A stretch of 64,000 bases of DNA from Heliocidaris erythrogramma (lineage: Eukaryota > Echinodermata > Echinoidea > Camarodonta > Echinometridae): the NCBI GenBank assembly GCA_025617745.1, contig CM046867.1, forward strand, positions 24,606,705 through 24,670,704. The letters run 5' to 3'. How positions within the stretch are numbered: position 1 is the first letter of the stretch; every line of letters starts with the position of its first letter. The notes below the pieces were generated by a model. It saw only the letters and a program-made list of their open reading frames with translations. It did not search any database and was not told the origin of the DNA. Shown in pieces: positions 10,440 through 37,043 of this stretch. The translations under genes were made by a program, and so were the position numbers.

Positions 10440-11262
10440 GTTTTTCGGAAGGTTCGTATTTCCGAAACACTAATTTCCCATGCCTGGGGGTTCATAATTC
10501 CTAAAATGGAAAAGGGTTCGTAATTCCGAACATTTGTTGCATTATTCCGAAGGTTTGTTATTCGGAAGGTTCGTTTATCCGAAGGTTCCTTTATCCGAAG
10601 GTTCATAATTCCGAAAATGAAATAGGGTTCATATTTCCGAAAATGAAAAAGGGTTCGTAATTCGGAAGGTTCGTATTTCCGAAAATGAAAAAGGGTTCGT
10701 ATTTCCGAAAATGAAATAGGGTTCGTATTTCCGAAAATGAAATAGGGTTCGTATTTCCGAAAATGAAATAAGGTTCGTATTTCCGAAAAATGAAATAGGG
10801 TTCATATTTCCGAAAATGAAAAAGGGTTCGTATTTCCGAAAATGAAATAGGGTTCGTATTTCCGAAAATGAAATAGGGTTCGTATTTCCGAAAATGAAAT
10901 AGGGTTCGTATTTCCGAAAAATGAAATAGGGTTCATATTTCCGAAAATGAAAAAGGGTTCGTATTTCCGAAAAATGAAATAGGGTTCGTATTTCCGAAAA
11001 TGAAATAGGGTTCGTATTTCCGAAAATGAAATAGGGTTCGTATTTCCGAAAATGAAATAGGGTTCGTATTTCCGAAAATGAAATAAGGTTCGTATTTCCG
11101 AAAAATGAAATAGGGTTCATATTTCCGAAAATGAAAAAGGGTTCGTATTTCCGAAAATGAAATAGGGTTCGTATTTCCGAAAATGAAATAGGGTTCGTAT
11201 TTCCGAAAATGAAATAAGGTTCGTATTTCTGAAAAATGAAATAGGGTTCATAATTCCTGGTA
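10440..11262. repeat. Left arm minisatellite, about 25-bp units
   Basis: Roughly two dozen units of GGGTTCGTATTTCCGAAAA plus TGAAATA, with variants in the AAA(T/A)A(G/A) positions. Because the unit is 25-27 bp, reading frames pass through it, giving a long spurious frame rich in a YEPYFIF-like repeat. Confidence 0.95.
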
Positions 11263-11774
11263 AAAAAAAAAGCGAATTCATCAGGAGCAGAGGTGTAGCA
11301 ACGGGGGGGGGGGGGGGGGGAGGGCACGCCCCCCCCCCCCCCTCCCTCATCGGATGGTGAAAAAATAAGAAAAAAAGAAAGAAAATGGAATAGGAAAGAA
11401 GACGGTTGGACCCCTTCCGGCAACCCCCCTCCCCCCAACCCTCTTCCACCAGCGGCTTCTTAGATTAGCTTTAAGATTATTCCAAAAGATTTGTGCCTCC
11501 AATGGTGCCAGTGCCCCACAATGGCTAGACTGTTAAAGGGGAAATTTAGGGTCACGATAGGATATTATGGTTTTAATTGCCATCTTCAAAAAGCGGATCT
11601 CTTTTCGACTAAAAGCACCTCCCCCACCCCTGCAATGAATAAAAAAATGAAATGGAGACACAAAACTGGGAAGGTTTATAAAAGAGAAGAGGAGAAGAGA
11701 AAAGAGACGAAAATAAGAGGACGAGATTAGAAGAATCGAATAAGTGTTTATGTGTGTGTGTGTGCGTGTGTGGA

Positions 11775-14500: not shown

Positions 14501-14579
14501 GTACAAAAATTAATATATTTACACTTGGCCGTCTTTCCCCTCCTCCTTATCCGAAATACGGATTGACGCCGTATTCTCT

Positions 14580-14905
14580 GAATTTACAACCCTTTTTCAT
14601 TTTCGGAAATACGAACCCTTTTTCATTTTCGGAAATACGAACCCTATTTCATTTTCGGAAATACGAACCCTTTTTCATTTTCGGAAATACGAACCCTTTT
14701 TCATTTTCGGAAATACGAACCCTATTTCAGTTTCGGAACTACGAACCTTCGGAATTATGAACCCTTTTTCATTTTCGGAAATACGAACCTTCGGAAAAAC
14801 GAACCTTCGGAGTAACGAACCTTCGGAATAACGAACTTTCGGAATTATGAACCTTCGGAAAAACGAACCTTCGGAAATACGAACCTTCGGAAAAACGACA
14901 TGTAA
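14580..14905. repeat. Right arm minisatellite of the foldback element
   Basis: The inverted counterpart of the left arm: units of TTTTTCATTTTCGGAAATAC followed by GAACCC, then shorter CCTTCGGAAAAACGAA units toward the end. The outer edge degenerates into ACGACATGTAAC before the 9-bp duplication. Confidence 0.95.
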
Positions 14906-15282
14906 CCGATGTTTTATTGTAGACACATATAAGTGAATTCAAATATTCGAAAAGAAGATAAATACACTTATAAAAAATCTTGAATGCTTAATATATGACT
15001 TGCCGAAGATCAGTTATCTACCCTACATCCTCTTTGTGCATATTCTCCTGTCATGGATGAAGAACACAAAATAGACATGGAGGGGAAAGGAAACAAATTG
15101 CATTTATTAAAACTTTTATTTCTAGTTTGCTTTATGACACCAAAACAAAAGTTATCAAAGTGACTTAATTTTGTTTAATTCAAGCGCCTCTTAATAGGTA
15201 TTAAAGGATGTATATTTGAAATATTACATGTCCGCTTAAAAAAGCATTAGAAATAGCACACTTTAAAGTGTTGATAACTGAC

Positions 15283-15405
15283 CATATGCACATGAACGAC
15301 CAATGTACGATGAAGGGCAGTTACAAGTGTAGTCATATGGAGTTGTGTCCAGATTGTTGGTACATGTTCCTCTTCCCGAGCATTGCTGCAACGTGCAAGG
15401 ATAAG
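15283..15405 (-). CDS. EGF exon G, gene copy 1
   Basis: A 123-bp phase 1-1 exon with acceptor TTTACAG and donor GTCAGT. It encodes YPCTLQQCSGRGTC, then YTCNCPSSYIGRSCAY, with six cysteines. The exon at 32,790-32,912 is its copy-2 twin with the same splice sites. Confidence 0.85.
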
Positions 15406-15644
15406 CTGTAAATTGCAATTAGGAAAATAGAAAGCATTTGATTAATCAGTTATTCATATTTTCTATAACTATCGATAGAAATTCACAAGTAGTAATCATC
15501 ATTCGCTAACGCCTGCATAATAATTATTATGAATACTGCAGTCAGAAATAACGGAATCGAAACACATTTGATTATTGGTAAAAACATACAATTATTCATT
15601 CAATTATCAGAATCAGTCGATGTGAGAACAATTTAGAAACTCAC

Positions 15645-15764
15645 CATTTTCGCAATTCGAGCCATAATACTCAGAGGTGCACAGGCACGAAATAAAGTTT
15701 CCGGTAACGGGATTATTTATACAGGTCCCTCCGTTATGACAAACGGAACCGAGGCATGCGATTG
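15645..15764 (-). CDS. EGF exon H, gene copy 1 (most 5' exon found)
   Basis: A 120-bp phase 1-1 exon with acceptor CTTACAG and donor GTGAGT. It encodes IACLGSVCHNGGTCINN, then SCLCTSEYYGSNCEN, with six cysteines. No further EGF exon, start codon with signal peptide or promoter is seen between here and LINE A, so the gene's 5' part is missing from this copy or lies farther away. Confidence 0.85.
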
Positions 15765-16907
15765 CTGTAAGTGTATATATAAAATAACGTCATGAACGAT
15801 ATCTAAAAGAAAGATACGTACTCTAAAAATATTTCATTATTAAATCAATTTTCTAATCGTCTCTAAAGAATCAGAAGGACTCTGTATTTTGAAGATACCG
15901 AGCCATACCTTCTGACTCCCAGGACATACTATTAAAATATCACATTGGCTGGTATCGAAGGAACAAATGCTTTTTCTAACCTTTTGCTTGTAGCTTCAAA
16001 ATAATTCAGCGTATAAGTAATGGGCCGCTGCTGTTGTTGTAGGGTTATACACCTCAAGATCAGCTCAAGCTGCATTGAGGGAATCACAAAAGCGGTTTGT
16101 GCGACGAGGCATTATAGCTGAGTCTAAAGGGTTTTTTTTCTCCCTGCTCACTTTCCAAAGTGGCGGCAAAGGGCGCTGCTAAATCTTTCAAGACAGCTTT
16201 ATGCGTGATTAAATTCATGTTTCTTTCAAATCTCTGTAACTAAAGATAAATATCACTAGCTCTTGAAAAAATATGAGAACAGTGTTATATGCAGAAATAA
16301 CACCTTTCTAATTTTCATCAGGTCCATGCAAGTAAAAGCGTAAAGCTGGTTATAAAGGAGCTTACAAAATACCAAGTAAAAGCTTAATGAAAGAAATTAC
16401 TTCTTTTCAAATAGGCATTTACTAATCTGGCAGGGTTTTGTGTAAAAGAACAAAACATTTTCTTTTGATGAGATCCTAGATAAGCTTTCGCTTGTCTAGA
16501 AAAGCGACTGCTAGCAAGAAAACAAGCTTCTTCTTCTTTTTGCAACCATCTACTTGGTTGGAATATCTGAATTTGCAAACAAAAGGTTAGAAAAAAAAAA
16601 CATTTTGCTAGGCCTGTACATGTGTATGCTCCTGCTCCTCTCCAACAAAGAGCTCCTAATTGCATGATTTTGACTTATTTAGTCATTTTTATTATTGATA
16701 TCTGATTTTGTAAGTTGCATGGCATTAGCTGGTCAATTTTGTAAGTTTCATATTTGATGATTTTGGTTGTAACATTTTGGATAGCTCTGTGTTGTAGTAC
16801 AGTACAGTATGTAGGAGTCCATGTTCTATGTACTCCTATGTGCATTACTGTGCATTACTGTACTCTGTTGTGTAGCTTTTGAGCATTGTTCACTTCAACG
16901 ACTCTGA
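15765..16907. other. Duplicated non-coding flank between gene copy 1 and LINE A
   Basis: It is nearly identical to 33,295-34,399 of copy 2. It contains AT-rich intron-like DNA and the AATAGGCATTTACTAATCTGG block. No exon, RNA gene or promoter motif could be supported. The LINE A 5' end must lie within its right part. Confidence 0.6.
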
Positions 16908-18482
16908 ATGCCTGGACTCAAGAGAAACACAATGCATCCTTTTCATGTGGGACTATTCATCCTCCTGTGCTGCTATGCCAGTGCTATTGACTTCATTCAA
17001 TTCAGCAGAAAATATTCCATCAAAAGAAGGATTCTTTACAGTGCTAACAGCAATGCTTCATTCCAGTTAGAACTTCTTCATGATGGTGATGTCCACCCTA
17101 ATCCCGGCCCAGACAACAGACATGATGACACTTTATCTACTTCAAGACGTTCTGTTGATCATTATACAGCTGTTAACAAGTATACTCCAGCCGAACTTCG
17201 TCAGCGGAAAGATGTCACTGCGCCTCTTCCACTGCATGTTTGTGAAAACATTATATCATATGGAATACCACAGACACTGCCAAAGAATACGAGGCGGTGT
17301 ATTCGAGGTGGAAAGAGAAAGAACAGTCTTCTACATGTTAGTCAGGCATCCGATAAAACTTTATCACATCCAGAATGTCTACAACTTTGTTCATTAAACG
17401 CACGCTCGGTTTGCAATAAAACAAATCTCATCCATGAATCTCATCCTGCAGTCCAGCGTGAATTAACTCCCTGTAGTTTTCGCTTTCTTCATCAATCAAG
17501 GACTGGTCGCCGTGGAGGTGGAACTGGTCTTATTTTTAAGGAATCCATCGACGCTCGTCAAGCTGCTGCTGGTCGAACGGAATCATTTGAGTATGATGAA
17601 TATGTTGTATATAAATCATTTCATCTTCTGTTAATCAATGTATACAGACCGCCATATTCAGAATCTCATCCTGTGTCTTTTTCAGTATTTCTTTCACACT
17701 TTACTGAATACATTCAAGACCACCTGCTCTCTAATGTTCGATTATTGATTACTGGTGATTTTAATATTACAGTTGATGAAAACTCTTCAGAATGGAGGAC
17801 CTTCAAAAATCTTTTAGATTCACTGTGTTGTAAGCAATTTGTTAATTTTGCTACTCATTCACATGGTCACCCACTTGACCTTCTAATCTGTCGTGAGTCT
17901 GATAATATAATTGTAGGCCAACCGTAGCCATGTGAGGTTCCCATATCAGATCACACACCAGTTATGTGTCATCTCAATACGTCTAAACCAGTATTAGCTG
18001 ACATTTTGACTTATCAAAAATATTCCCGTATTGATACTATAATGTTTAGTAGAGATATTGCAGAGAGTATACTTTGCCAGGATATATCAAGTGACATCTC
18101 TGAACTTGCTTCCTTGTATGATATTACACTTAGAAATATCTCAGATAAATATGCTCCTATTGTCTCAAAACGAGTGGTAGCTCGTCCTCATGCGCCATGG
18201 TACACAGACGAGGTACGGGCAGCAAAGAGGCAAAGACGAAAAGCAGAGAAACAGTAGCTTAGAACAAGATCTGAGCACGATTTGGATAGTTACAGGAAAT
18301 CCTTACATGTTTGGAATGTGGCTCACAGAAATTATCACAAAGATTTAGTCACACGTAATAAAGATGACTTGAAAGGTTTGTTTACTGTCATTAAATCTCT
18401 GCTTAATGTATCAAATAAACAACCAGTGATGCCATGTGACACTGATAGGTAAAGATATTGTGAACGGCTTGGGGATAACGTC
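16908..18482 (+). pseudogene. LINE A 5' part: N-terminus and APE endonuclease (copy 1)
   Basis: One frame runs from ATG 16,908 and is broken by TAG at 17,925, TAG at 18,255 and a later TAA near 18,450. The N-terminus has a hydrophobic stretch GLFILLCCYASAID, then a 2A-like GDVHPNPGP at residues 60-68, a basic linker, and an APE-type endonuclease with LCSLNARSVCNK, YRPPY, LLITGDFNI and SDHTPV boxes. The box with the catalytic E (TETWL) is deleted between HES and HPAVQRE. A fragment at 1,005 keeps it. The element then stops at a TTAA where a DNA element is inserted. Its RT half is missing here but survives at 52,878. It is an L2/CR1/Crack-like APE LINE, now inactive. Confidence 0.85.
17085..17111 (+). 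other. 2A-like translational recoding motif in LINE A
   Basis: Codons read G-D-V-H-P-N-P-G-P. The 2A consensus is D-V/I-E-x-N-P-G-P, at which ribosomes can skip the G-P bond. Here E is replaced by H, so activity is uncertain. 2A-like sequences at the N-terminus of APE-type LINE ORFs are known from sea urchins and other invertebrates. In copy 2 a deletion changes the residues just before it to LYCDVYPNPGP. Confidence 0.75.
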
Positions 18483-18929
18483 TTAAGAGCTACTCTCTGA
18501 GAGAATCAGGCAGGGGTCGGAAGATGGGGGTCTGCAAATTGGACTCATATTTTAAAGTTTGATCAAGTCCTTTGAAGCATTTTCAAAAATAGCTATGAAA
18601 CCGCTCCACCATTCCTATCTGTGATTTTACCGCCCCACCCCAAAATGCGCCCTCTGTAGCCTAATTTTACACTTTTAATTTACGAAAAACGCCCAATTTT
18701 ACGTAAATTTTTCACCTAGGTAAAATGACCCGATCATCTTTGAAATTTTAGCCACAAACTATCTTTACGTTGTTGGTGCTTCTGATATAAAATTGAATGA
18801 TGAATGATTAGATTAAATGGTGATATTTTTACTTGGAAAGTAGTATTTTTTTTATTTTTGAGAAATTTTAAAAAATGCAATTTTATGGTAAATTCAACAG
18901 AGTATAACAAAAAATGGCCAAACTTTTTA

Positions 18930-20520
18930 TGAGCTAATATTTGGTCAGGAAGTGTCTTCACGTGTCTACTTTTGATTTATGATTTCAAAAATGTGGAGTG
19001 TCTTACACTTTTTATGCACATGTCTGTTAAAAAGTACCATTTTTAACTTCTGACAAATGTCTAAAAATAGTGTTTTTCAATGCTAACGTTGACAAACAAA
19101 ATATTACGTGACCAAATGTATTTTCAAATCATACTTGGGCATGTTGGGCCATTATAGCGCTATGTTCGATATCTGAATTTTAAAATTGTTGGGTATTTTT
19201 TTGTATTTATGTCAAAGTAGCCTTACAGTATGTTTTCACATTTTTGAAAAGTTGAAAGTAAAAGACAATAACTTTAACATTAATTCGTCTTAGGCTAATA
19301 CCAATGACCAAACCTATATTTAATCAATACTTGGTCACAGAATGCCTTCACGGTGTTCTTTCAATAACTGATTTCAAAAGTGTCGAGTAATGTGTACTTG
19401 TAATGCAAAAGTAAACCTAAGATATGCCATCTTTCACATTTTCTTTGAAAACTGAAATAAAAAAAAAAAACGCTAATTGAAACCTAAATTCATATTGGGC
19501 TAATGTCAAGGAGCTAGCATATTTTCAATCAATAATAGGTCGCATAGTGCATCCATGGTACAAATTTCAATATCCGATTTCGAGAGTGTGGACTAGTGTG
19601 TGCTTAATATATAAAAATAAACCTAAAATATCATAAATTTTCCCCCTTTTTGAGACATTGAAGAAAAAAAACACGGTAATTTAATCTAAAATTCATCTCA
19701 CGCCAAAATCAAAGACTGACGTATATTTTGATTTGATAGTTGATTACAGAGTGTCTGCAGAATGCTACTTCCAATACCTCACCTGATTTCAAGAGGGTGG
19801 AGTAATTTGTACCTTGTAAAAATTTCCCTAAATTCATATTGGGCTAATGTCACGGACCTAGCCTATTTTCAATCAATAGTTGGTCGCATAGTGCGTCCAT
19901 GGTGCAAATTTCAATATCCGATTTCGAGAGTGTGGAGTAGTATGTGTTTTATATATAAACATAAACCTAAAAACTCATAAATTTTCCCCCTTTTTGAGAA
20001 ATTGAAGGGGAAAAAAAAACAAAAAACACGGTAATTTAATCTAATATTCATCTCACGCCAAAATCAAAGACTGACGTACATTTTGATTTGATAGTTGATT
20101 ACAGAGTGTCTGCATAATGCTACTTCCAATACCTCACCTGATTCCAAGAGGGTGGAGTAATTTGTACCTTGTAAAAAATTTCCTAAGCAAGATGTGCTTT
20201 AATTATGCCAAGTTTAATATTTTTGCGTAAAATTAGAGATAATCAAGATTTAAGCTCTGATAATTCATTAAATCCCAATATCAATGACCTAACTCCTGAT
20301 CACAGGATGCCTCAATAATTACTCATTTTGATATTTTATTCTTTTAAGAATTGAGTAATCATCTCTACCTATGTGAAGATGCGCTTTAAAACATGCCTGT
20401 GGTCGCATTTTGAACAAAGAAAGTTTAACCTAATAATTATAGCAACCTAAATGCATAACTCCACAATGATTTACCCAATACTTGGTCATAGAGTGCCTTC
20501 GCAATTTCACTTTCGGAATA
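18930..20520. repeat. Degenerate tandem repeats inside the TTAA element
   Basis: A theme of GGTCaCAgAaTGcCTtcaC followed by a GATTTCAAAAGTGTGGAGTA-like block recurs about every 170-200 bp. One recent larger duplication has a period of about 351 bp (GCTAATGTCAAGGAGCTAGC at 19,497 and its variant at 19,848). The copy-2 segments at 36.3-36.9 and 47.06-48.0 kb share it. Confidence 0.7.
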
Positions 20521-21536
20521 ATGCTGCGCATATTATATATAAATAAGAGTTTCACATTGTCCATTTATCAATATGATAAATGGGGGACAAATAATAATAC
20601 AGTAGTTTTAACCGTATTCCACCAAACCTGTGCAAAACTGGACAGAAAGCGTAATTTATGCATTGGTGAAATATTAATGCAATTCAATTTTTACGAAAGG
20701 AAATGGAGTTCCCAATTCCGTAAATGAAACAAACCCTAATATCATTTTCCACCAGTACGAACATTGCGATAAAAACGTCAAATTTCAAACTAATGGGTTA
20801 TAAATCATTTTATCAGACCAGAAAATATGTATAAATGTAGCAATAAGATAAAACAGAAAGAAGTGTGTACTTGGAAAGACGGTTTTTGCATTACGTGTTG
20901 GGAAACGGTAAACGTTTCGTCATCATTTACCCTACCAATTGAAAAAAGTAAGTTCCCCTGAAACTTTTTAATATATCTCGAGAAATGTTTGAATAAATCT
21001 GTTCATTCAAAGATCAAAGTATGCAGATTTTTTGTTTAACCTACATTTTGATTGGTTATGTGTGATCAATCAATTGTGTTGTAAATGAAATTATGGTTTT
21101 TATTCCCGTCGGTACAAAGAAAATATGTAGCACTTTGTGTTTTATAATGCAATGCATGGTTTATGTGTATACTATTTTCAATTATTTTCATCTTTAATCT
21201 TATTATAGTTTTTCATGGAGGTTCATGAAACTGCGGTCAAAATCACAATTTTCTAATAATTTTGTCTATATTGTGTAGGGCAGAAAAGAAGAATTTAGAA
21301 TAAAGGTCTAATTTAAAGGGGATGGGCACAATCAAACAAAAAATAAACAATATAAAAGCCTAGGGGAAATTCTTAATCTAATTGTTTCATATTGAAATTG
21401 TAAATCATTCAAGCAACACCCATGCTAAAGAAAAAGATTGAAACAAGAGCAAATAGTCAGGGTCCTCCGTTGAAAATAGCGATGCATACTAAAGAATCTA
21501 ACTTTCTAGTTTTCCCAATATTCAGCAGTACTGCTA

Positions 21537-21994
21537 TAGGTTTTCCAGGTCAAATGTCCGCCGAGCCAGATCAAATGTCATATAGGTAATTGAAATGTCC
21601 GAGGGGGAAATCAAATGTCCTGTTAGCAAAATAAACATCCGAATAAGTACGTAAGGTGTCCATAGAGAATTCAAATATCCGCACAATAGAAATAGGGGAA
21701 ACAAATGTCCACATTGCAAAACGAATGTCCCGATAGAAAAATAAGACTTCCATAGGGAATTTAAATGTCCGCATAATAGAAATTCCTGCTTATCCATGCA
21801 TGAATTAGAGGATTAAGTCTTACATAGGTAAATCGAATGTCGTATAGGTAGTTCATATGTCCAAGTAGTCACACACTTGTCAGTTGAACGTTTCATTGAC
21901 ACAAAAAAACCATAGCAAAATAACATTTTGCAAAATGTGTATTGTTGTCTCTTTTTTTGGGGGGGGGGAGGGGGGGTGGACATTTGTTTGTGAA

Positions 21995-22030
<36 letters not shown>

Positions 22031-22692
22031 CGTGCGTGCGTTGAATGATGCACATAACTTGATGTCAGTATGGGTGTGCTTCGGACTGTGTAATTACGAG
22101 AGACTTTCCTTGTGAAATGGTGGATAGGACTGATATCTCTTCTGTGCGTTTTGTTTTTATTTAGGGACCGTTCATTATTTATGCCAGGGGGGGGGGTGGG
22201 GGGGGGGTAAAATTCATGTCTCGTCAAAGAAAGTTACATGATCCCCCCTCCCCGCCAACCCTACACGAACAAGCAAACGTTACATCCCCCCTATTTTTAC
22301 CCCCCCCCCCCCCTGGCATGAATTATGAACGGTCCCTTAGCTTAAATAATGTATAATTAAACATATTGTTCTTAATCTTAACTGTGGACAGTTGATATCA
22401 CTATGTGACATTTGTTTTCCCGGTTTGGATAGAAGTCCCTCTACAAGGAAATTTGGTTCACTATATGATATTTGGTTTCCCTTATCGGATTTTAAAAATG
22501 CAAATATGGACACTTCGTACTATATGGACATTTTTAAATGCAAATATGGACACTTCGTTCGTACATGGACATTTGAAAATCCTTTCATGGATCTCCACAA
22601 TCAAATGTGGACTTTTAAAAATATCCATGGATATTTCAATTACCTATATGACACTTTCCTGCAGTCGACGGATATTTGATCTGGAAAACCTA
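21537..22692. mobile_element. TAGG-ended DNA element with AAATGTCC-repeat arms
   Basis: The ends are TAGGTTTTCCAGGTCAAATG and, on the other strand, TAGGTTTTCCAGATCAAATA, flanked by TA. Copy 2 shows the empty site CTGCTATAAACAT at about 51,040-51,055. Both arms contain many spaced copies of AAATGTCC (left) or GGACATTT (right). A TA duplication suggests the Tc1/mariner-IS630 group. There is no transposase. It carries (TG)n and an inserted Harbinger-like MITE. Confidence 0.8.
22164..22336. mobile_element. Harbinger-like MITE, 173 bp
   Basis: Terminal inverted repeats GGGACCGTTCAT...ATGCCAGGGGG, with TTA on both sides (22,161-22,163 and 22,337-22,339). A 3-bp TTA/TAA duplication is typical of PIF/Harbinger. 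It is nested in the TAGG-ended element. Confidence 0.75.
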
Positions 22693-23396
22693 TATAAACA
22701 TGCCACAATTAATGAATTTATTGTTGTTTTTTTGCAGAGAAGATTTTACAGACTTCAAAATGATACCAAATGTTCAGCTTAGATTCTATAACATTAACAT
22801 TATGGTTTTGATTAAACTTGAAAACAGGTCAAAGGGAAGTCATTGGAACAAAGAATATTTTTGACGATAGATAATTTCAGTTATAAACTCATAGCAAATT
22901 TACATAACCAATGATAGGGTAAACAAGTAAAGGGATTCTCTAATGATTCTAAATAAAATGATAATAATTAAGTAATTCCAGAAACATATTCAATCAAACT
23001 CTATTTTCCGATTTTTTTTTCAGGTTTATAGAAAATAAACATATGAGAAAATGAACAATTGTGTATTCCTATCCTAATATTCCTGATAATTTGACCCCTC
23101 TCGCCCAATTTATTCAAATGTCTCTAGCTTAGTCCATTACCGAAAATATTAAAAGGGACTGATACACATTAGTTCATATCTTTTGTACAATTCCTTGGCA
23201 AATGACCTTCTCTGTTATAAATACATGTGACCATCTCTCCCTTGGGTTCGTCCATTGAGTACTCTAGGTATGTTTCCATGTACAGATGTGAGCAAATGTG
23301 AAGAAATAACATATAGATAACCTTTCCGACAATAAATCGATTTTTTTACAGTAGTTCCATTGCTTTCCGGTCGAGTATTCACAAATGAACAAGAAA

Positions 23397-23735
23397 TTGT
23401 AAAATCAGCACTGATTTTCTTATTTACTATATAAATCTATATACCTACCTATTATGCTAGTAGTCTTGACTACGCGACTTTAACACAGATGAGTCACAAT
23501 ATTGTGCGCACCCCCCGTAATCCTATTGTTCCCCTTCGCCACTCACGTGCGGCAACACGCAACGGCCATCTTCCTCTTTTGCGAGCAGCCCCAAGTAGAA
23601 ACATGTTGCTTGCAAGGTGAGGGGAAGGAGGGAGGGTCATAGGTAGGTATATAGATTTATATAGTAAATAAGAAAAATCAGTGCTGATTTTACAAATTTA
23701 CGGCAATAAATCATATATACCTACCTATTATGCTA
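23397..23735. repeat. DIRS terminal inverted repeat structure
   Basis: A segment containing AAATCAGCACTGATTTTCTT and TATATACCTACCTATTATGC at 23,397-23,460 is repeated inverted at 23,638-23,697, with about 180 bp between. Part of it is repeated directly at 23,708-23,735. DIRS elements carry inverted terminal repeats and an internal complementary region used to circularise. I found no matching copy at the 28.2-kb end. Confidence 0.6.
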
Positions 23736-23791: not shown

Positions 23792-25063
23792 TTACAAAGA
23801 AGACACAGCGGCCTTCAAGGTAGCTGACGCAAAAATAGCCTCACCTGCAGGGACATCCCTAAGGTAGCAAGAAATGAAGGAATTGGACGAACGCCAATAA
23901 GCAGTCTTCAAAATATCATCAAGCGTCACACTGGGCGTTGTGGGCGTGCGCCTGTAATCCAGCTACCAGTGGAAGTTATAAACTGATTCAGCGGACCCTG
24001 GTTCGAGACTGAGTCACGTCTTTCGGATGGTGACGTTAAAGGTCGGTCCCAGACGTAAATAATCATATCTGATTGATACACGTCTGTAAAAACCCAATTA
24101 CACACACACACACACACACCTTGAAAAAGAGCCCAAGAAGTGCTCACACTACGAGTGTCATGAGCATGAGGCTTACTGTCAGACAAAAGAGCCTCTGTGC
24201 CAGCAGCCCTAATAGCCTCGACAATCCATCTAGAAATGAAATCAAGAGAAGCAGGAGAAAAAGACTCTCGAGTGATCAGGAACAACTGATCATCTTTACG
24301 ATAAGACTTAGTCTTATCAATATACCATTTGAGAGCTCTAACAGGACACCAAACCTTGTCCTCCCGCACTGACGAAAATTCAGAAAGCGGGCAAAGAAAA
24401 ATCTCAACAGGGCCAGATTCTTGGCAATAAAAGCCTTAGGAATCAATCTAACACCTTTTCTCTCCCAGCGAACATGACCAGGAGTAAGACAGAGGGCATG
24501 CGCCTCTGCCCAGAGGCAATGGCTACCAAGAAGAGCGTCTTAACCGTAAGATGGTGATGCGAAGCTTCACCCAACGGCTCAAAAGGAGGCTTTCCCAGAG
24601 CTTCTAAGACCTTAGGCAGACTCCAAGACGGGACTAACTTAGAACGAGGAGGACGTTTCAGAAAGAACGACCGAATCAAACCACTCAACAGCGGGGAATT
24701 AGAAATCCCCGAACCATCTGAGAACCCCGAATGAATGGCCCCGATCGCCGATCGGTAGCCTTGGATAGTAGAGATGAATCTCCCTTTGTCAAATAGCGAG
24801 ATTAGAAAATCCGCAATTGGACCAATATAAGCCTAAGACGGGGTTTGATTTCGCTCTTTACACCACAGGAAAAAGACCGAAAGACGGGAATTATAAATTT
24901 CCCTAGTAGAAACTCTACGACTGGACATTAAAAAGTCCGCGGCTCTATCCGAGAGACCCGACTGTCTTGCAGATTCCCCAACATGGGCCAAGCAGTCAAA
25001 TGAAGGGACGGTTGAGCCACCAGAAGGCTCATTAGCTCCGGAAACCAAAACCTCCTGGGCCAA
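23792..25063 (-). pseudogene. DIRS tyrosine recombinase (broken)
   Basis: The N-terminal core-binding part at about 24,833-25,063 has SSRRVSTREIYNSRLSVFFL. The middle is at 24,443-24,688. The catalytic part contains PHAHDTRSVSTSWALFQG (HxxR motif), followed beyond an inserted SINE by WRSSNSFISCYLRDV, which carries the candidate nucleophilic Tyr. The frame ends at TAA 23,792-23,794. Frame shifts separate the pieces. The enzyme would integrate the circular DNA copy of the element without an integrase. Confidence 0.85.
23932..24119 (+). mobile_element. SINE with 7SL RNA (Alu-domain)-like head
   Basis: It is inserted inside the recombinase gene, which resumes exactly on either side (GCGTCACAC ... 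CTTGAAAAAG). The head reads GGGCGTTGTGGGCGTGCG then CCTGTAATCCAGCTAC, matching the SRP RNA Alu domain. A pol III B box GGTTCGAGACT follows at 24,000-24,010, as in Alu. The tail has TCTTTCGGATGGTGACGTTA, a segment type common in invertebrate SINE tails, and ends in (CA)n. A CACAC target duplication would merge with the tail. A tRNA origin cannot be fully excluded. Confidence 0.65.
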
Positions 25064-25150: not shown

Positions 25151-26240
25151 CTAAAGTTGAGCAGGGTTAAAAGAACTGCCATAAACTCCAGAACATTGAT
25201 ATCGGGAAGAGTCCCAAGATGAGGCCAATCCCCCGCGACCGTGCTGCCATTGCAATGTCCGCCCCACCCCAACCGAGAGGCGTCCGTCGAAAAACGGAAG
25301 GGGGGTACGGAAGGACTTGCCTCGCGCGAGAAACTCCTCGTTCGTCCAACGGGAGAGAAGAGACTTGATTCCTATTGGAACTGGAACCCGGACCAACAGA
25401 ATCCTTGCCTGGTTTGTAAAACCTGAGGAGATGTCTCTGAAAAGGTCTCATAAGGAGCCGGCAAACCTCAAGAACATCTAGACTGGCACGATAACCCCAA
25501 AACTGAAGCCACTGTCTGGCCTTGAGCTTGCGAGCCGCCGAGACAAAAAGTGAGAATCCTGTCTCGTCGACTGGGCCGAGCCAACTGATTCCGAATGTCT
25601 CACACAGCCCCCAGAAAAACTGGGCTGCGAGTAGGAACTAACTCTGACTTTTCCCAATTTATTAGGAAACCTAATTCTTGAGTAAGATTGACGAGCAAAC
25701 GAGTCTCGTCCAACAAACGATCGTGCGACTCCACTAGGAGAAGCCAGTCGTCCAGGTAGCAAAATAGCCGAAGACCGCGGCGCCTCAGTGAGGCTGCCAG
25801 CACGGCTACGACCTGAGTAAAAACCCGAGGGGCTGGGCGCAGCCCGAAGGGGAAGAGCGCGAAAGCGAAAAGTCTCTGAGAGGAAGAAAAACTGCAGAAG
25901 ATCGCGCGAAGCGCGATGAATGGGAACATGGAAATACGCATCCTTGAGATTTATCAAGACCGCGTATTCCTTCCTGTTGATCAACGGGAGAATGGAGGCG
26001 AGAGTCTCCATTCGAAAATATACTGAAGGAATGAATTTGTTTATTCTTTAAGTTCAGTATCCAACGAAGTTTTCCCGAGCGCTTGGGAATAACAAAAGTC
26101 GGAGAAAGGGAAAAAGACAGCCGGTCTCTTACCCTTTCTATAGCCCTCTTTTTCAACAGAGATTCGATCTCCGATGAGGCACGAGAACGAGCGAGGGCAG
26201 ACATGTGAGGTGACCGAGTTCTTATAGCCCCTCCGGGGAG
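25151..26240 (-). pseudogene. DIRS reverse transcriptase and RNase H (frameshifted)
   Basis: The N-terminal part has SLSPTFVIPKRSGKLRWILN. After a shift near 26,040 comes YAVLINLKDAYFHVPIHRAS (first catalytic Asp), then after a shift near 25,870 PFGLRPAPRVFTQ and the YLDDWLLL catalytic box. Farther on, a DAS...GWGG and INVLEFMAV segment (about 25,170-25,300) fits RNase H. This RT type (YLDD, KDAYFHVPI) is that of DIRS and related LTR-class elements, not LINEs. Confidence 0.88.
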
Positions 26241-26401
26241 CGGGGCGGACAGATCTATGAAGAATCCGTCTCGCCCGACAAAGAGAACAAAAGCGTCCCC
26301 GGAGATGGCCTTCCAAGCGGGGAGAAAGGAACGAAGACGGCCACCTACCAAGTCGCGGACAGACGCCCGCGGCGACTTAGAGTGAGCGCGAAACTGCGTA
26401 A

Positions 26402-27442
26402 TCAAGACAGAGACCTGTTTTCGCGCATCGATTTCTCTTTGAAAAACCGTAGCAAATTGACCACCAAAAAGCGAAGGACCCCGAGACGAAACATCCCGGA
26501 GAAGCGGTGCGATGTCCGACTCGTTAACCCCAAGGGCCGTAAGAACCAAGACTCCGCGACGGTCATGACCGAGGCAGCTACAGTGGAAAGCTGTGACCAC
26601 TGCAAACTAAAAAGAGTATGCAGCAGGTCATCGATAACCAGTTTGTCACCATCAGTAACATTCAACTCCTCCGCCCTAGACCTGAGGTCGGAGAGAAAAC
26701 CTTGAAAAGCAGCCAAACGCATACCTGCTCTGACCTGGCTTTCAACACTACTCCAACGCTTATCCTCAGACCTAAAAGCGACAGAGGTTAGCGGATTGAT
26801 CGCCCGCAAGCGACGACCCACCGCTAAAACCTCCGGAGAGAGAGACTTAGCTTTGAAAAAGCTGTCTTGATCTTGGGAAACAAAGGCATAGGCCTTACCC
26901 CTAACCGCAACAGGGCGCTTAACTAAAAGCGCTGCTTCAATGCGGTCATACTCCAGCTTGAAATCCCCCGCAAGAGAAATACCCTCGGAGGAATCTTGCT
27001 GCCTGAACCAACGCGAAGTCGAACCCTGCGCGCGGGCTGACTGAAATTCAGGGAGATATTTGGACAACAAAGCAATCGCTTCTACCCCACAAAGGGCGAG
27101 CGACTGAGGCTCTGCCTGCCCAAACGATTCGGAAACCGAAGCTTGAGAGGCCGCCTCTAAATCTGGTTCCGCCTGAATAGATTGGGACAAAGGACCGCCA
27201 ACAAAGGACGAAACAGGCGGACCTTCCCATGGACCACCATAAGTCTCCTCGCCCGGTGGGGCCCCAAGGGCCGCGGGAATAGGAGGCGCATGCGATCCCG
27301 TCTCAGACAATGAAAAATCAACCATAAAAGGCTGATTAGTCTCAATGTCAGACCCTAGAATAGGGACAGCAGCAGGGGTTGCGGTGCCCGGTACAAGGGA
27401 CCAACCCTGACTCTGAGCAAACGTCCGCATCATGCTGAACAT
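26402..27442 (-). pseudogene. DIRS gag-like ORF, 346 residues
   Basis: The frame starts MFSMMRTFAQSQGW, is Ser/Pro/Gly-rich for its first third and Ala/Leu-rich later (SQVRAGMRLAAFQGFLSDLR, LFSLQWSQLSTVAASVMTVA). Position and composition match the first ORF of DIRS elements, which codes for the particle protein. The 3' end overlaps the RT frame, as usual in the group. No zinc knuckle is seen. It is classed as a pseudogene because the element is broken overall, although this frame itself is open. Confidence 0.65.
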
Positions 27443-28615: not shown

Positions 28616-28712
28616 GTAAAACATTTTTATAATTATTTTATAATTAAATATCATAATTGATAGGATTGAAGTAAATTGAATATATCATAAAGAAAATGTG
28701 AGAAAATTACAA

Positions 28713-28784
28713 TGCCCCGACCGGGATTCGAACCCGGGACCCTGGATTACATGACCAGTGCTCTACCAACTGAGCTATCCGGGC
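28713..28784 (-). tRNA. tRNA-Thr(UGU)-like unit, left arm
   Basis: It fits a 72-nt cloverleaf: acceptor GCCCGGA/TCGGGGC (one G-G mismatch), D arm GCTCAGTTGGTAGAGC, T arm CCGGGTTCGAATCCCGG, anticodon arm CTGGT-CATGTAA-TCCAG. The anticodon position reads TGT, but base 33 is A instead of the near-universal U and the stem base pair next to the loop is T-T. Together with the mobile context this favours a tRNA-derived SINE or pseudogene. Confidence 0.6.
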
Positions 28785-29103
28785 TCCCGTCGAAGCAAAG
28801 TAACAATCTCACATATAGCCCCTCTCTTTCCATCGAGCGTAGGGGGTACATCCATACCAATTTCCATCGTACGCTATAATGGCCTACCAATGAGACAGGT
28901 CTTCCCTCTAAAGTCGGGCAAATCCATGCCAACGAATTTCTATAGAGGACAATTTTTAAATTTGTAATTAAATATCATAATTGATAGGATTGAAGTAAAT
29001 TGAATATATCATAAATATATTCAATTACCCCTAGGAGCGTACCCCCTACGCTCGATGGAAAGAGAGGGGCTATATGTGAGATTGTTACTTTGCTTCGACG
29101 GGA

Positions 29104-29175
29104 GCCCGGATAGCTCAGTTGGTAGAGCACTAGTCATGTAATCCAGGGTCCCGGGTTCGAATCCCAGTCGGGGCA
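29104..29175 (+). tRNA. tRNA-Thr(UGU)-like unit, right arm
   Basis: An inverted twin of 28,713-28,784 with two visible changes (ACTAG for ACTGG in the anticodon stem, CCCAG for CCCGG in the T stem). Both weaken the fold, so this one is even less likely to be functional. A and B boxes (TAGCTCAGTTGG, GGTTCGAATCC) are intact. Confidence 0.55.
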
Positions 29176-29413
29176 TTGTAATTTTCTCACATTTTCTTTA
29201 TGATATATTCAATTATTTTATACTTATGCACATGTTTAGGAGCTCTCAAACAGCGCAACTGAATATATACCGTATAGTAGCTGCGCAATATAAGTCTATA
29301 CCTATTATTTATCGATTCGAGCCATTGTTTTCACTTTCGTCAAGTTGAATAGAATGACGAAAAACTACTGAAAGGCGTGACGTTAATAGTAAGCTTTATT
29401 TGAATCAAGATTA

Positions 29414-29571: not shown

Positions 29572-30298
29572 CTACGAATAAAGGTGTGAAGAAGAGATAA
29601 CATATTTGACAAAATATATTAACGATGAATATCGAAGTGATAAGTTGACTTGGGTGATCTGCGTTACTTTAATTTTAATACTTAATACTTACATCATAGT
29701 CTAAATTCAAAAGAATGAGGGTCATATTAAGAATAAAAAAGGGTAGTTCTGTGACCTCAAAAGTAAACCTAGTCTGGCATACCTAAACTTCACACATAAA
29801 AATGTGCCTTATAATTTTGCCATCGACAGCAAATTTAGACCCCAAAAAGCACCGGGAAATGTGATATATTTTTCTTGTGCCTCCCCCTCCTATATTTTTC
29901 TTGTACCCCTCCCCCCTCCCCCTGGAAGAGACTCATAGATCTGCCAGTGACGCTACAGGTTATCTGTACCTTGAGGAAAGACGAGAATAGCGGCAACTAT
30001 TGTGACCTTTTTACCATCAATCATTCAACTATGCCCCTTGCATGTTCCATCACTCCAATTATAGACGGTTTTCTAATTTTATTAATTAATGACCAACTGA
30101 TTATTTATAAATTACTAATCAATTATCAATTAATTGCTAATAATGTTCATGTATACATTCACTTATATAATATTATCAATCTAGCATCGAAATCATGGAA
30201 CAATATGTATTCATTGATATATTTTTGTCCCATTTTGTATTCTTTAAAAACAAAACATATTTCTAAAGCAAAATTGTTTAGGAAGAAAGTGTGCATAC

Positions 30299-30430
30299 CA
30301 ACATTGCAGTAGTCCCCTGTCCAAGACGGATCACATATACAAGAGAATGTAGCAGTAGCTGTTGACTCATCAACACTGAACATACATTGTCCAGCATTCT
30401 GGCATGGGTTTATAGGCAAACAAGGATTGT
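30299..30430 (-). CDS. EGF exon A, gene copy 2
   Basis: A single exon of 132 bp here, where copy 1 has two (A1, A2). It is identical to A2 over the exon. Acceptor ACAG, donor GTATGC, phase 1-1, one EGF domain with long C3-C4 loop (SVDESTATATF). Confidence 0.85.
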
Positions 30431-30601
30431 CTGTGTACATAATAGATGATAGGTTGCTCGTCAGTAATTCCAATAGTTACTTATTTGGGGGAATATTTTA
30501 ATATTTTCCTGCAAGTACCACTTTCTATCAGTTTTGACTGTAAATACATTTTATAAATATAATTATTATAGACAATGTGTATATGTGTGATCATATACAT
30601 G

Positions 30602-30890
30602 TGTATATATATATATATATATATACACACTCATCTATTTCTCTTTTTTCCCCCTGGGCTTTCTATTTTCAAAACCCTCCCCCCCCCCCCCCCCCCCCCA
30701 CTTCTCCCAGAGCCCTTCTTTTCTTTTCTCGGCAGGCCGAGAAAAGAAAAGAAGGGCTCCCGATCCGTGTTTATTCTCTATCTCTCCCTCTCTCTCTCCC
30801 CTGTCGTTTTCACTCTTCCTCTCGTTCTGTCTCTTCTACTTTTTTCTATTTTTCTTCCATCCTTCTCTCTCTCTCAACATTTGTCTGAAG
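30602..30890 (+). repeat. TA/CA, poly-C and TC-rich tract (copy 2) with a 24-bp palindrome
   Basis: Same composite as 8.0 and 8.6 kb, but the poly-C run is longer (about 30,679-30,699). The block GAGCCCTTCTTTTC... at 30,710-30,733 is followed after AG by its exact reverse complement at 30,736-30,759. Copy 1 lacks this inverted repeat. Confidence 0.9.
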
Positions 30891-30942
30891 ATTTGTCAAT
30901 CTGCCGATCAATTGAATCTGGCATCGCCGAAACCACTGGCCC

Positions 30943-31013
30943 GCCTCCGTGGTCTAGTGGTTAAAGCACTGGCGCTCTGAGCCAGTGACTTGGATTCGAT
31001 TCCCGGCGGAGAC
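30943..31013 (+). tRNA. tRNA-like sequence (copy 2)
   Basis: A twin of 8,964-9,034 in the same intron. Its T loop (TTCGATT) is intact, followed by a T-run that could end pol III transcription. The anticodon loop GCTCTGA has C33, so decoding function is doubtful. Confidence 0.5.
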
Positions 31014-31386
31014 ATTTTTTTCAACTTTTGCAAAAATTTCAAAAGTGATGACAGCTCTGGGGAACTATGATTTAAGCCACGCAACCATTATTCTCTCACT
31101 TCTTTTCACATTATATACACTGTAAAAATAATTGACAAATTTATGTACTATATGTTTTATATAGTAATTTATATACGTTTTCTATATAAATCTATATGTT
31201 TTATAGTAATTTATATACTATATCCAGCACTGTAAGTCGGGAGTTTTTCGAAGTGTCGGTCCATAAACTAACAAATTGGCGGGTTGTAGCAAATTCCCTG
31301 CCACTGATAATCATTTAGCTTATGCCTGAAGAAAAGGTTTCTTAGGGGCAGCAATAAAGGGCAAAATAAAATCACAATTTCCTTAC

Positions 31387-31509
31387 CGTATTCACAGTGA
31401 TCTCCTATAAATCCATCAAGACAGGTACATGTGTATGAATGATCAATGGTGGTGATACACGCTCCACCACTCAAGCAAGGCTGAGTCGGTCTCTCACATG
31501 GATGGAATA
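31387..31509 (-). CDS. EGF exon D, gene copy 2
   Basis: A 123-bp phase 1-1 exon. Splice sites match copy 1 and all six cysteines are present. It reads GGACITTIDHSYTCTCLDGF, differing from copy 1 at two residues (Thr for Pro and Thr for Ile). Confidence 0.85.
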
Positions 31510-31819
31510 CTAAAAGATATCATAAAAGCCATTATTTTCACACAGCCGGGGTGCTAATGTTGTAAATAAACTAATATCATATGATAACTCAAACAGCATT
31601 TCTTCCGTTGTTCAAAGGAAACTTAAGTGATGGAAACGCAAGGTACAAAAAGAGAAATCCATCTTCACCAATAGAAATGCTGACATTAAGTATAGTCCTA
31701 TGAACTATAACTGTACGTGTACAACTGTAACTCATGTTTATGATGTTCACGTAACCCTCCCCTAAACTAATCGATTTCTTCGAATTCGTCTTTCAGAAAA
31801 TGAAATGAAATATTCTTAC

Positions 31820-31951
31820 CGTTCTCGCACCAATCACCTGAATAGTCAGTTGAACACGTGCACTGAACTGTGGGAGCAGTCGTCCAACCACCACTATACG
31901 AGCAAGTCCCTCCATTTTGACAAGGACTCCTCGTTTGAAAGCAAGGGTCCT
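31820..31951 (-). CDS. EGF exon F, gene copy 2
   Basis: A 132-bp phase 1-1 exon. It has Thr instead of Phe after CTCS. The splice sites and the GGTC and GDWCEN blocks match copy 1. Confidence 0.85.
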
Positions 31952-32789
31952 CTGTAAAATTACAAACGATAGAAAAGAGAACGGTAAACCAAGCCAGATC
32001 ATTTCACTTTATCTTGTTTTTTGCCCTCTTAAACGTTTCAAATAACTTTTCTCTTAAGCATCTTTACCTAAGTGAAGATGGTGAAGATTACATGAAATAT
32101 TTACCCGATAGATACCGGTATTATGAGAAATGCTTTATTGGATTAGTAAAAATGAGTGGTGCAGCGCCATTTCAAAGTTCCCTTCCTAAATACATGTAAA
32201 TTCCAGTAAATCTGCAAGATAAGATGGTAGAAACTGTTCCCAAATGGATTCAAACCCGGATATTTGGCTTTGATTCATTAATGCCTGGAAAATTAACAAA
32301 AAAGAATAAGTAATAAATGAATGAATAAATAAATAGGTACCGATAATAAATAGAAGAAAGTAAATACATAAAAGAATAAATAGATTAATAAATGATGCAA
32401 GCTCCCTCTACAACGATGTTTTATTGTAGACACATATAAGTGAATTCAAATATTCGAAAAGAAGATAAATACACGCATAAAAAATCTTGAATGCTTAATG
32501 TATGACTTGCCGAAGATCAGTTATCTACCCTACATCCTCTTTGTGCATATTCTCCTGTCATGGATGAAGAACACAAAATAGACATGGAGGGGAAAGGAAA
32601 CAAATTGCATTTATTAAAACTTTTATTTCTAGTTTGCTTTATGACACCAAAACAAAAGTTATCAAAGTGACTCAATTTTGTTTAATTCAAGCGCCTCTTA
32701 AAATGTATTACAGGATGTATATTTGAAATATTACATGTCCGCTTAAAAAAGCATTAGAAATAGAACACTTTAAAGTGTTGATAACTGAC

Positions 32790-32912
32790 CATATGCACAT
32801 GAACGACCAATGTACGATGAAGGGCAGTTACAAGTGTAGTCATATGGAGTTGTGTCCAGATTGTTGGTACATGTTCCTCTTCCCGAGCATTGCTGCAACG
32901 TGCAAGGATAAG
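32790..32912 (-). CDS. EGF exon G, gene copy 2
   Basis: A 123-bp phase 1-1 exon with donor GTCAGT and acceptor TTTACAG, identical in protein to copy 1 as far as I can read. The intron between G and F lacks the 4.5-kb foldback insert of copy 1. Confidence 0.85.
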
Positions 32913-33174
32913 CTGTAAATTGCAATTAGGAAAATAGTAAGCATATGATTAATCAGTTATTCATATTTTCTATAACTATCGATAGAAATTCACAAGTAGT
33001 AATCAACATTCGCTAACGCCTGCATAATAATTATTATGAATACTGCAGTCAGAAATAACGGAGTCGAAACACATTTGATTATTGGTAAAAACATACAATG
33101 TTATCTGCTACCAAAAAGGAATAGTTCATTCAATTATCAGAATCAGTCGATGTGAGAACAATTTAGAAACTCAC

Positions 33175-33294
33175 CATTTTCGCAATTCGAGCCATAATAC
33201 TCAGAGGTGCACAGGCACGAAATAAAGTTTCCAGTAACGGGATTATTTATACAGGTCCCTCCGTTATGACAAACGGAACCGAGGCATGCGATTG
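33175..33294 (-). CDS. EGF exon H, gene copy 2
   Basis: A 120-bp phase 1-1 exon. The only change noticed against copy 1 is silent (CCAGTAACG vs CCGGTAACG on the plus strand). It is again the most upstream exon of its copy. Confidence 0.85.
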
Positions 33295-34399
33295 CTGTAA
33301 GTGTATATATAAAATAACGTCATGAACGATATCTGAAAGAAAGATACGTACTCTAAAAATATTTCATTATTAAATCAATTTTCTAATCGTCTCTAAAGAA
33401 TCAGAAGGACTCTGTATTTTGAAGATACCCAGCCATACCTTCTGACTCCCAGTTCATAATATACTATTAAAATATCACATTGGCTGGTATCGAAGGAACA
33501 AATGCTTTTTCTAACCTTTTGCTTGTAGCTTCAAAATAATTCAGCGTATAAGTAATGGGCCGCTGCTGTTGTTGTAGAGTTATACACCTCAAGATCAACT
33601 CAAGCTGCATTGAGGGAATCACAAAAGCGGTTTGTGCGACGAGGCATTATAGCTGAGTCTAAAGGGGTTTTTTTCTCCCTGCTTACTTTCCAAAGTGGCG
33701 GCAAAGGGCGCTGCTAAATCTTTCAAGACAGCTTTATGCGTGATTAAATTCATGTTTCTTTCAAATCTCTGTAACTAAAGATAAATATCACTAGCTCTTG
33801 AAAAAATATGAGAACAGTGTTATATGCAGAAATAACACCTTTCTAATTTTCATCAGGTCCATGCAAGTAAAAGCGTAAAGCTGGTTATAAAGGAGCTTAC
33901 AAAATACCAAGTAAAAGCTTAATGAAAGAAATTACTTCTTTTCAAATAGGTATTTACTAATCTGGCAGGGTTTTGTGTAAAAGAACAAAACATTTTCTTT
34001 TGATGAGATCCTAGATAAGCTTTCGCTTGTCTAGAAAACGACTGCTAGCAAGAAAACAAGCTTCTGCTTCTTTTTGCAACCATCTACTTGGTTGGAATAT
34101 CTGAATTTGCAAGCAAAAGGTTAGAAAAAAAAACCATTTTGCTAGGCCTTTACTAGTTTTTGCTTGGATGAGCGCAAGAGCATGTACATGTGTATGCTCC
34201 TGCTCCTCTCCAACAAAGAGCTCCTAATTGCATGATTTTGACTTATTTAGTCATTTTTATTATTGATATCTGATTTTGTAAGTTGCATGGCATTAGCTGG
34301 TCAATTTTGTAAGTTTCATATTTGATGATTTCATATGTATTTTGGTTGTAACATTTTGGATAGCTCTGTGTTGTAGTACAGTACAATATGTAGGAGTCC

Positions 34400-35846
34400 A
34401 TGTTCTATGTACTCCTATGTGCATTACTGTGCATTACTGTACTCTATTGTGATGTCTACCCTAATCCCGGCCCAGACAACAGACATGATGACACTTTATC
34501 TACTTCAAGACGTTCTGTTGATCATCATACAGCTGTTATCAAGTATACTCCACCCGAACTTCGTCAGCGGAAAGATGTCACTGCACCTCTTCCACTGCAT
34601 GTTTGTGAAAACATTATATCATATGGAATACGACAGACACTGCCAAAGAATACGAGGCGGTGTATTCGAGGTGGAAAGAGAAAGAACAGTCTTCTACATG
34701 TTAGTCAGGCATCCGATAAAACTTTATCACATCCAGAATGTCTACAACTATGTTCATTAAACGCACACTCGGTTTGCAATAAAACAAATCTCATCCATGA
34801 ATCTCATCCTGCAGTCCAGCGTGAATTAACTCCTTGTAGTTTTCGCTTTCTTCATCAATCAAGGACTGGTCGCCGTGGAGGTGGAACTGGTCTTATTTTT
34901 AAGGAATCCATCGACGCTCGTCAAGCTGCTGCTGGTCGAAAGGAATCATTTGAGTATGCTGAATATGTTGTATATAAATCATTTCATCTTCTGTTAATCA
35001 ATGTATACAGACCGCCATATTCAGAATCTCATCCTGTGTCTTTTTCAGTATTTCTTTCACACTTTACTGAATACATTCAAGACCACCTGCTCTCTAATGT
35101 TCGATTATTGATTACTGGTGATTTTAATATTAAAGTTGATGAAAACTCTTGAGAATCGAGGGCCTTCAAAGATCTTTTAGATTCACTGTGTTGTAAGCAA
35201 TTTGTTAATTTTGCTACTCATTCACATGGTCACACACTTGACCTTCTAATCTGTCGTGAGTCTGATAATATAATTGTAGGCCAACCGTAGCCATGTGAGG
35301 TTCCCATATCAGATCACACACCAGTTATGTGTCATCTCAATACGTCTAAACCAGTATTAGCTGACATTTTGACTTATCAAAAATATTCCCGTATTGATAC
35401 TAGAATGTTTAGTAGAGATATTGCAGAGAGTATACTTTGCCAGGATATATCAAGTGACATCTCTGAACTTGCTTCCTTGTATGATATTACACTTAGAAAT
35501 ATCTTAGATAAATATGCTCCTATTGTCTCAAAACGAGTGGTAGCTCGTCCTCATGCGCCATGGTACACAGACGAGGTACGGGCAGCAAAGAGGCAAAGAC
35601 GAAAAGCAGAGAAACACTAGCTTAGAACAAGATCTGAGCACGATTTGGATAGTTACAGGAAATCCTTACATGTTTGGAATGTGGCTCACAGAAATTATCA
35701 CAAAGATTTAGTCACACGTAATAAAGATGACTTGAAAGGTTTGTTCACTGTCATTAAATCTCTGCTTAATGTATCAAATAAACAACCAGTGATGCCATGT
35801 GACACTGATAGGAAAAAGATATTGTGAACGGCTTGGGGATAACGTC
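34400..35846 (+). pseudogene. LINE A 5' part (copy 2), N-terminus deleted
   Basis: Its frame is the same as copy 1 but broken by TGA 35,150, TAG 35,288 and TAG 35,618. About 225 bp upstream of the 2A-like motif is deleted, so the frame now starts MFYVLLCALLCITVLYCDVY followed by PNPGP. The APE endonuclease again lacks the TETWL segment, showing that this loss predates the duplication. It ends at TTAA 35,847-35,850, where the DNA element is inserted. The RT half continues at 52,878. Confidence 0.85.
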
Positions 35847-37043
35847 TTAAGAGCTACTGTCTGAGAGAATCAGGCAGGGGTCGGAAGATGGGGGTCTGCA
35901 AATTGGACTCATATTTTAAAGTTTGATCAAGTCCTTTGAAGCATTTTCAAAAATAGCTATGAAACCGCTCCACCATTCCTATCTGTGATTTTACCGCCCC
36001 ACCCCAAAATGCGCCCTCTGTAGCCTAATTTTACACTTTTAATTTACGAAAAACGCCCAATTTTACGTAAATTTTTCACCTAGGTAAAATGACCCGATCA
36101 TCTTTGAAATTTTAGCCACGAACTATATTTACGTTGTTGGTGCTTCTGATATAAAATTGAATGATGAATGATTAGACTAAATGGTGCATGCTATTTTTAC
36201 TTGGAAAGTAGTATTTTTTTTTATTTTTGAGAAATTTTTAAAAATGCAATTTTATGGTATAACAAAAATGGCCCAACTTTTTATGAGCTAATATTTGGTC
36301 AGGAAGTGTCTTCACGTGTCTACTTTTGATTTATGATTTCAAAAATGTGGAGTGTCTTACACTTTTTATGCACATGTCTGTTAGAAACTACCATTTTTTA
36401 ACTCCTGACAAATGTCTAAAAATAGTGTTTTTCAATGCTAACGTTGACAAACAAAATATTACGTGACCAAATGTATTTTCAAATCATACTTGGGCATGTT
36501 GGGCCATCATAGCGCTATGTTCGATATCTGAATTTTAAAATTGTTGGGTATTTTTTTGTATTTATGTCAAAGTAGCCTTACAGTATGTATATGCCTATTT
36601 TCACATTTTTGAAAAGTTGCAAGAAAAAGACAATAACTTTAACATTAATTCGTCTTAGGCTAATACCAATGACCAAACCAATATTTAATCAATACTTGGT
36701 CACAGAGTGCCTTCACGGTGTTCTTTCAATAACTGATTTCAAATGTGTACTTGTAATGCAAAAGTAAACCTAAGATAGGCCATCTTTCACATTTTCTTTG
36801 AAAACTGAAATTTAAAAAAAAAACGTTAACTGAAACCTAAATTCATATTGGGCTAATGTCAAGGAGCTAGCATATTTTCAATCAATAATCGGTCGCATAG
36901 TGCATCCATGGAATAGTCACGTGATAGCAATGGAGTGCGGTTGTGATTTTGTGAAGACGAGCTAACCTAACTTTTCTGGGTCCTGGATCACCTTGACTCA
37001 TAATGTACGTTATTCTAAACCTTCTTTAAATGATTCTTTGAAT

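Follow-up and report, generated by a model that had tools for sequence, protein, structure and literature searches.

SINEs with a 5′ part derived from 7SL RNA (SINE1) are rare and are reported only from mammals and hagfish in the literature that we found, with putative cases in marsupials and the guinea pig (available portions of PMC7245038, PMC9599045, and PMC10886601). The accessible text of PMC7245038 treats the marsupial and guinea pig repeats as not yet established SINEs and describes the hagfish family as the first clear case of SINE1 beyond Euarchontoglires. As described there, Alu and B1, the SINE1 elements of Euarchontoglires, consist solely of 7SL sequence, carry a poly(A) tail, and have L1 as their partner, and the hagfish family SINE1-1_EBu (Kojima 2020) has a 282-bp consensus with ~140 nt of 7SL sequence (5′ and 3′ parts), an RTE tail, and AAC repeats. 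No invertebrate 7SL SINE was found among the literature matches listed, which covered titles and abstract starts of openly accessible papers.

Here we analyze a short element within a 64-kb stretch of DNA (the window). We interpret it, with a probability of roughly 0.8, as one copy of a multi-copy chimeric SINE in which the 7SL 5′ domain opens the head; a B-box half, a body, a hairpin tail, and (CA)n come after it.

Results

The element interrupts a recombinase-like reading frame on the opposite strand (Table 1). An earlier note, made from the letters of the sequence, had proposed that the insertion splits this frame cleanly and ends in (CA)n, and both proposals held: the minus-strand frame at 24369-24120 runs in frame into 23931 and beyond, and a (CA)n run closes the element. 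Joining the flanks (23931 to 24120, for example) gives an in-frame empty site that reads SWALFQG followed directly by VTLDDILKTAYW (SWALFQG-VTLDDILKTAYWRSSNSFIS). Because of the CA runs, shifting the join by a few bases leaves the reading unchanged or nearly so; the other copies of the element, described below, start to differ immediately upstream of GGC. CACAC closes the left flank, and the right flank begins with CTTGAAAAAG. No target-site duplication is visible, and any exact one would measure no more than 5 bp, the CACAC that the CA tail could conceal.

Table 1. Features of the element and of the frame that it interrupts, in window coordinates
Feature	Position	Strand	Remarks
Whole SINE copy	23932..24119	+	~188 bp, tail included; either end may be off by a few bases; basis, in-frame flank joins; order 5′ to 3′: TGGGCGTTGTGGGCGTGCGCCTGTAATCCAGCTAC..., B box, body, hairpin, (CA)n
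5′ domain of the SRP Alu domain, derived from 7SL RNA (helices 2-4 with CUGUAAU motif)	23933..23976	+	cmscan, Metazoa_SRP
A box-like GGCGTTGTGG	23934..23943	+	At the position of the 7SL A box
Distal head, including B box GGTTCGAGACT (24000-24010)	23977..24010	+	
Body, holding CACGTCTTTCGGATGGTGACGTTAAAGGTCGGTCC	24011..24050	+	Antisense peptide of the body recurs in database copies
Tail hairpin AGACGT...ACGTCT	24051..24085	+	Highest conservation in the alignment of the first six copies
(CA)n tail	24100..24119	+	Read from the sequence
Interrupted recombinase-like frame (DIRS type), + side of the SINE	24120..24369	-	SWALFQ end
Other part of the recombinase-like frame	23792..23931	-	VTLDDILKTAYWRSSNSFIS... 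to its stop

The joined peptide matched Pfam Phage_integrase weakly (E = 0.02; 15.1 bits, below the cut-off of 27.1) and gave no match in PDB, and the + side piece alone matched no Pfam family at E ≤ 1. A related-locus search of viral contigs with the recombinase piece returned 14 pattern matches, of which none was confirmed. Three more minus-strand open reading frames (ORFs) at 25478-27442, which matched no Pfam family, are ones that we take to resemble DIRS elements. The assignment of the interrupted frame to DIRS thus comes chiefly from resemblance of motifs and from the earlier note. A short inverted repeat (23394-23452 and 23639-23698, 97% over 60 nt) adjoins the DIRS-like remnant.

BLASTN of the window turned up CA runs and short matches but no second copy of the SINE. 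Pieces of three block pairs (7077-10024 and 30141-32005, 14907-18750 and 32414-36114, and 19665-23391 and 47162-51741; 288 to 703 nt compared) are duplicated at 96 to 100% identity, with offsets of about 22 to 23, 17.4 to 17.5, and 27.5 to 29.5 kb, respectively, a pattern expected of recent duplications or copies of repeats; the block at 19665-23391 stops at 23391, short of the SINE. A 26-bp minisatellite (ATTTTCGGAAATACGAACCCTTTTTC) forms two arrays in opposite orientation (10537-11388 and 14547-14796), and a 749-bp unit occurs as three tandem copies at 38336-40133, identical over the 300 nt compared. Two tRNA-Thr(TGT) genes (28674-28849 and 29039-29214) make up an inverted repeat with arms that are 99% complementary and lie 189 nt apart.

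The central claim of the earlier note, a 7SL RNA-like head, was borne out. In a cmscan search of 23850-24200, Metazoa_SRP was the only Rfam family at E ≤ 10 (E = 8.3e-6), with a score of 28.6 bits that lies far below the Rfam gathering score for this family (70 bits). When the whole window was scanned, the head was recovered at E = 0.0015 as the sole SRP row among 81, and 23932-23980 given alone scored 17.8 bits (E = 0.0015). A plain alignment of the head with the Rfam SRP consensus scored 46 (aligned part, 23933-23966), a score reached by none of 5,000 dinucleotide shuffles (mean 13.0, standard deviation 2.1, maximum 30); the best score elsewhere in the window was 27 (12,782 pieces of 94 nt, sampled at 10-nt steps from both strands). 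The Alu-domain block CCTGTAATCCAGCTAC that the note had pointed out is present at 23951-23966, preceded by GGGCGTTGTGGGCGTGCG from 23933. The A box-like GGCGTTGTGG is identical at 8 of 10 positions to GGCGCGGTGG, which the available text of PMC7245038 gives as the A box of human 7SL.

This likeness is confined to ~45 nt (~23933-23976). The segment 23850-23988 alone scored 28.3 bits against Metazoa_SRP (model positions 1-44; match, 23930-23976), so the sequence past the 5′ domain adds 0.3 bits. The B box, which the earlier note had included in the 7SL-derived stretch, lies outside the 7SL match. The consensus 5′ domain has 14 base pairs, 12 of which are canonical in the head; two of these 12 use 23930-23931, and these two bases, the source of two helix-2 pairs, are probably target flank. 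The segment 23932-23979 folds as two hairpins at the positions of helix 3 and helix 4, with a stability that lends no support to 7SL (133 of 200 shuffles equally good). Extending it to 23930-23977 favors another fold (69 of 200 shuffles equally stable), and the element up to its tail (23932-24092) has a fold z score of −1.03.

Read down from 24117, one antisense frame stays open through the element, and copies in public contigs therefore show up as spurious ORFs. We queried a database of 5.8 billion proteins with the antisense translation of 23929-24105 (59 amino acids). All five candidates matched (E = 8.2e-25 to 1.9e-8, 63 to 89% identity), and a profile built from these five (A2) gave 27 matches at E ≤ 1, 22 of them at E ≤ 1e-3, among 7,990 candidates scored; the 27 include the same five first-round copies, and the other side of the stricter threshold holds 5 of the 27. 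All are single-contig ORFs of source "ena," degenerate antisense peptides perhaps from one species. The element is thus short, dispersed, and multi-copy, with copies counted among database ORFs, which disposes of the single-copy outcome that the earlier note had named as fatal to its proposal. Exact DNA words of the element had no match in viral contigs, where a related-locus search with profile A2 returned one pattern match and no confirmed locus. One exact-word match in genome contigs, in Nocardia, was rejected as chance, the rest of the element being absent around it. One database ORF with a SINE copy (P0133) also holds MAEWSKALVWGSEDRGSIPGTA in the same frame, which looks like an antisense tRNA-derived SINE.

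Eight of the 27 matches extend into the head (P0121, P0122, P0123, P0124, P0126, P0127, P0128, and P0132) and carry WITGARHNA or a near variant. Upon back-translation, with codons picked to favor 7SL for matches and null alike, 25 of 27 nt were 7SL compatible in six copies, 24 in P0132, and 23 in P0128. The maximum was 21 among 106,067 other 9-mers (those with WI excluded) from 147 fetched proteins, 120 of which are LINE relatives. The remaining 19 matches leave the frame or are without the head part and are uninformative on the head. The window copy carries an extra G within 23942-23944; judging from their peptides, the eight head-reaching copies (H-N-A or H-N-D) would fit the 7SL length without it. 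Past H-N-A the residues vary (Q, L, P, or the end of the ORF; H-N-D-S in P0132), which places the 5′ end of the SINE at or beside GGC. Where the flanks of the copies can be seen they likewise differ, apart from those of P0122 and P0123, which have the same downstream flank and are therefore counted as one locus or related loci; by visible flank, the eight copies form seven groups. P0124 shows the upstream flank only, and P0132 shows no CA tail.

Conservation extends into the 3′ part of the element. DVYQSDMIIYVW is invariant in the six rows of alignment A1 and exact in 12 of the 27 database matches, and 19 of the 27 have, beside the tail peptide, a run of CVC or VCV such as a CA tail would encode. 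The tail hairpin has a fold z score of −2.88 (1 of 200 shuffles equally stable), for a stretch chosen after viewing the fold. Comparison of the tail with the rest of the window gave no convincing match, and no partner LINE was found. The window holds a long open LINE frame at 44070-46538 (822 amino acids, RVT_1), with 6,057 relatives at E ≤ 1e-30 among 7,989 scored; the closest among the 120 listed is 66% identical over 87%, and an Exaiptasia relative has 32% identity. The body presumably resembles the Nin domain of other SINEs, its CGTCTTTCGGATG-GACGTTAAA-GGTCC looking to us like that of Nin-DC SINEs; a literature text query with such body letters returned no match.

How far the 7SL-derived part reaches bears on the origin of the distal head. 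The whole head, B box included, might be an internally deleted 7SL Alu domain that joins the 5′ part to the 3′ end, like Alu, B1, and the hagfish SINE1, a possibility that we consider doubtful. cmscan threads 23930-24023 through model positions 1-299 with the S domain deleted, UGAUUCAG and CUGAGUCA can pair like helix 5, and the distance from A box to B box, start to start, is 66 nt versus 70 in human 7SL (quoted portion of PMC7245038). However, the gain from 28.3 to 28.6 bits is all that the distal part contributes, and its alignment does not rise above shuffles with either the printed consensus (2,557 of 5,000 equally good) or human 7SL 38-100 (2,531 of 3,000). The helix 5-like stem is also no better than shuffles (41 of 200 equally good), and 23967-24030 matched no Rfam family at E ≤ 10 in cmscan. 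The 5′ part is thus 7SL-like, as in SINE1, at a score under the Rfam gathering score, and the distal head does not display the internal deletion that joins 7SL 5′ and 3′ parts.

The B box is of tRNA type, and the distal head is weakly similar to the 3′ half of the two tRNA-Thr genes in the window (10 of 2,000 and 44 of 2,000 shuffles equally good), a likeness that was sought after the fact and is a lead only; tRNA-Thr also shares TGTAATCCAG with the head. Two tRNA-Arg genes gave nothing comparable (1,626 of 2,000 and 1,177 of 2,000 shuffles equally good). That the element is an ordinary tRNA-derived SINE (SINE2) whose head is 7SL-like by chance is nonetheless disfavored and very unlikely, given that no shuffle attained the 7SL score and that none of the four tRNAs detected by ARAGORN in the window lies at the SINE. 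The better tRNA or 5S match that the earlier note had held against a 7SL head was likewise not found by cmscan, in which neither model appeared at E ≤ 10. The 5′ part is therefore neither tRNA derived, the B-box half resembling tRNA weakly, nor 5S derived as in SINE3. We consider it extremely unlikely that the window holds an isolated chimera of 7SL and another element, whether an insertion or a product of template switching, with no SINE family behind it. Chimeras of 7SL and LINE-1 are known in mammals (accessible part of PMC13174262), but the same junction of 7SL and body recurs in the eight database ORFs, in seven flank groups, besides the window.

Discussion

A recurrent head-body-tail unit, an in-frame empty site, and a (CA)n end uphold the description of this locus as a SINE-like insertion. 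In the chimeric SINE that we favor, the start of the head would correspond to 7SL nt ~4-45, comprising the A box and the SRP9/14-binding fold, and the B-box half that follows may be tRNA-like or of uncertain origin. The two box-like sequences (Table 1) form a predicted RNA polymerase III promoter, and no TTTT lies within the element. By analogy with Alu and the hagfish family, RNA polymerase III would transcribe the SINE using an A box of 7SL type and a B box of tRNA type. The hairpin tail is presumably common to a partner LINE, the enzyme of which would recognize the hairpin/(CA)n end and copy the SINE into nicks at which a short GT-rich primer is exposed. On such a model, the (CA)n end would be primed at GTGTG of the target, which here holds CACAC. 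As has been proposed for Alu, the 7SL fold may also dock the RNA on ribosomes via SRP9/14, close to freshly synthesized LINE protein.

A further independent origin of 7SL SINEs, with a new architecture, is plausible and would follow from an invertebrate host. We put at even chances the more specific proposal that this is the first invertebrate 7SL-headed SINE family, which would bring the independent origins to three with those in Euarchontoglires and hagfish, and that an older SINE here exchanged its A-box half for the SRP9/14-binding 5′ domain alone, giving a minimal head. If true, the 7SL 5′ domain alone would be what SINEs repeatedly gain from 7SL. A further origin with the 5′ domain only would provide a direct test of which part of 7SL helps a SINE to spread, and would also test ribosome docking via SRP9/14 as a general route for LINEs beyond mammalian L1.

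The CUGUAAU motif is common to Alu, B1, and the head of the window SINE. Among described families, the Nin-DC SINEs include a Lottia family filed as SINE2/tRNA (available text of PMC11121367, citing Piskurek and Jackson 2011). Tree shrew Tu-type SINEs and GarnAlu, which the accessible part of PMC7245038 presents as chimeras of 7SL- and tRNA-derived parts, resemble the proposed structure of the window SINE; they differ in belonging to the mammalian SINE1 lineage. With Alu and B1, as portrayed in the same text, the window SINE shares the 7SL 5′ domain with its A box, whereas its body and tail are unrelated to 7SL. The resemblance to SINE1-1_EBu extends to overall design: a 7SL 5′ head, a body of unrelated sequence, and a tail, presumably of LINE type in the window SINE, that ends in a microsatellite. 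In contrast to the portion of 7SL given for the hagfish family in that source, however, ~45 nt of the window SINE are demonstrably 7SL, and its tail consists of a hairpin and CA repeats.
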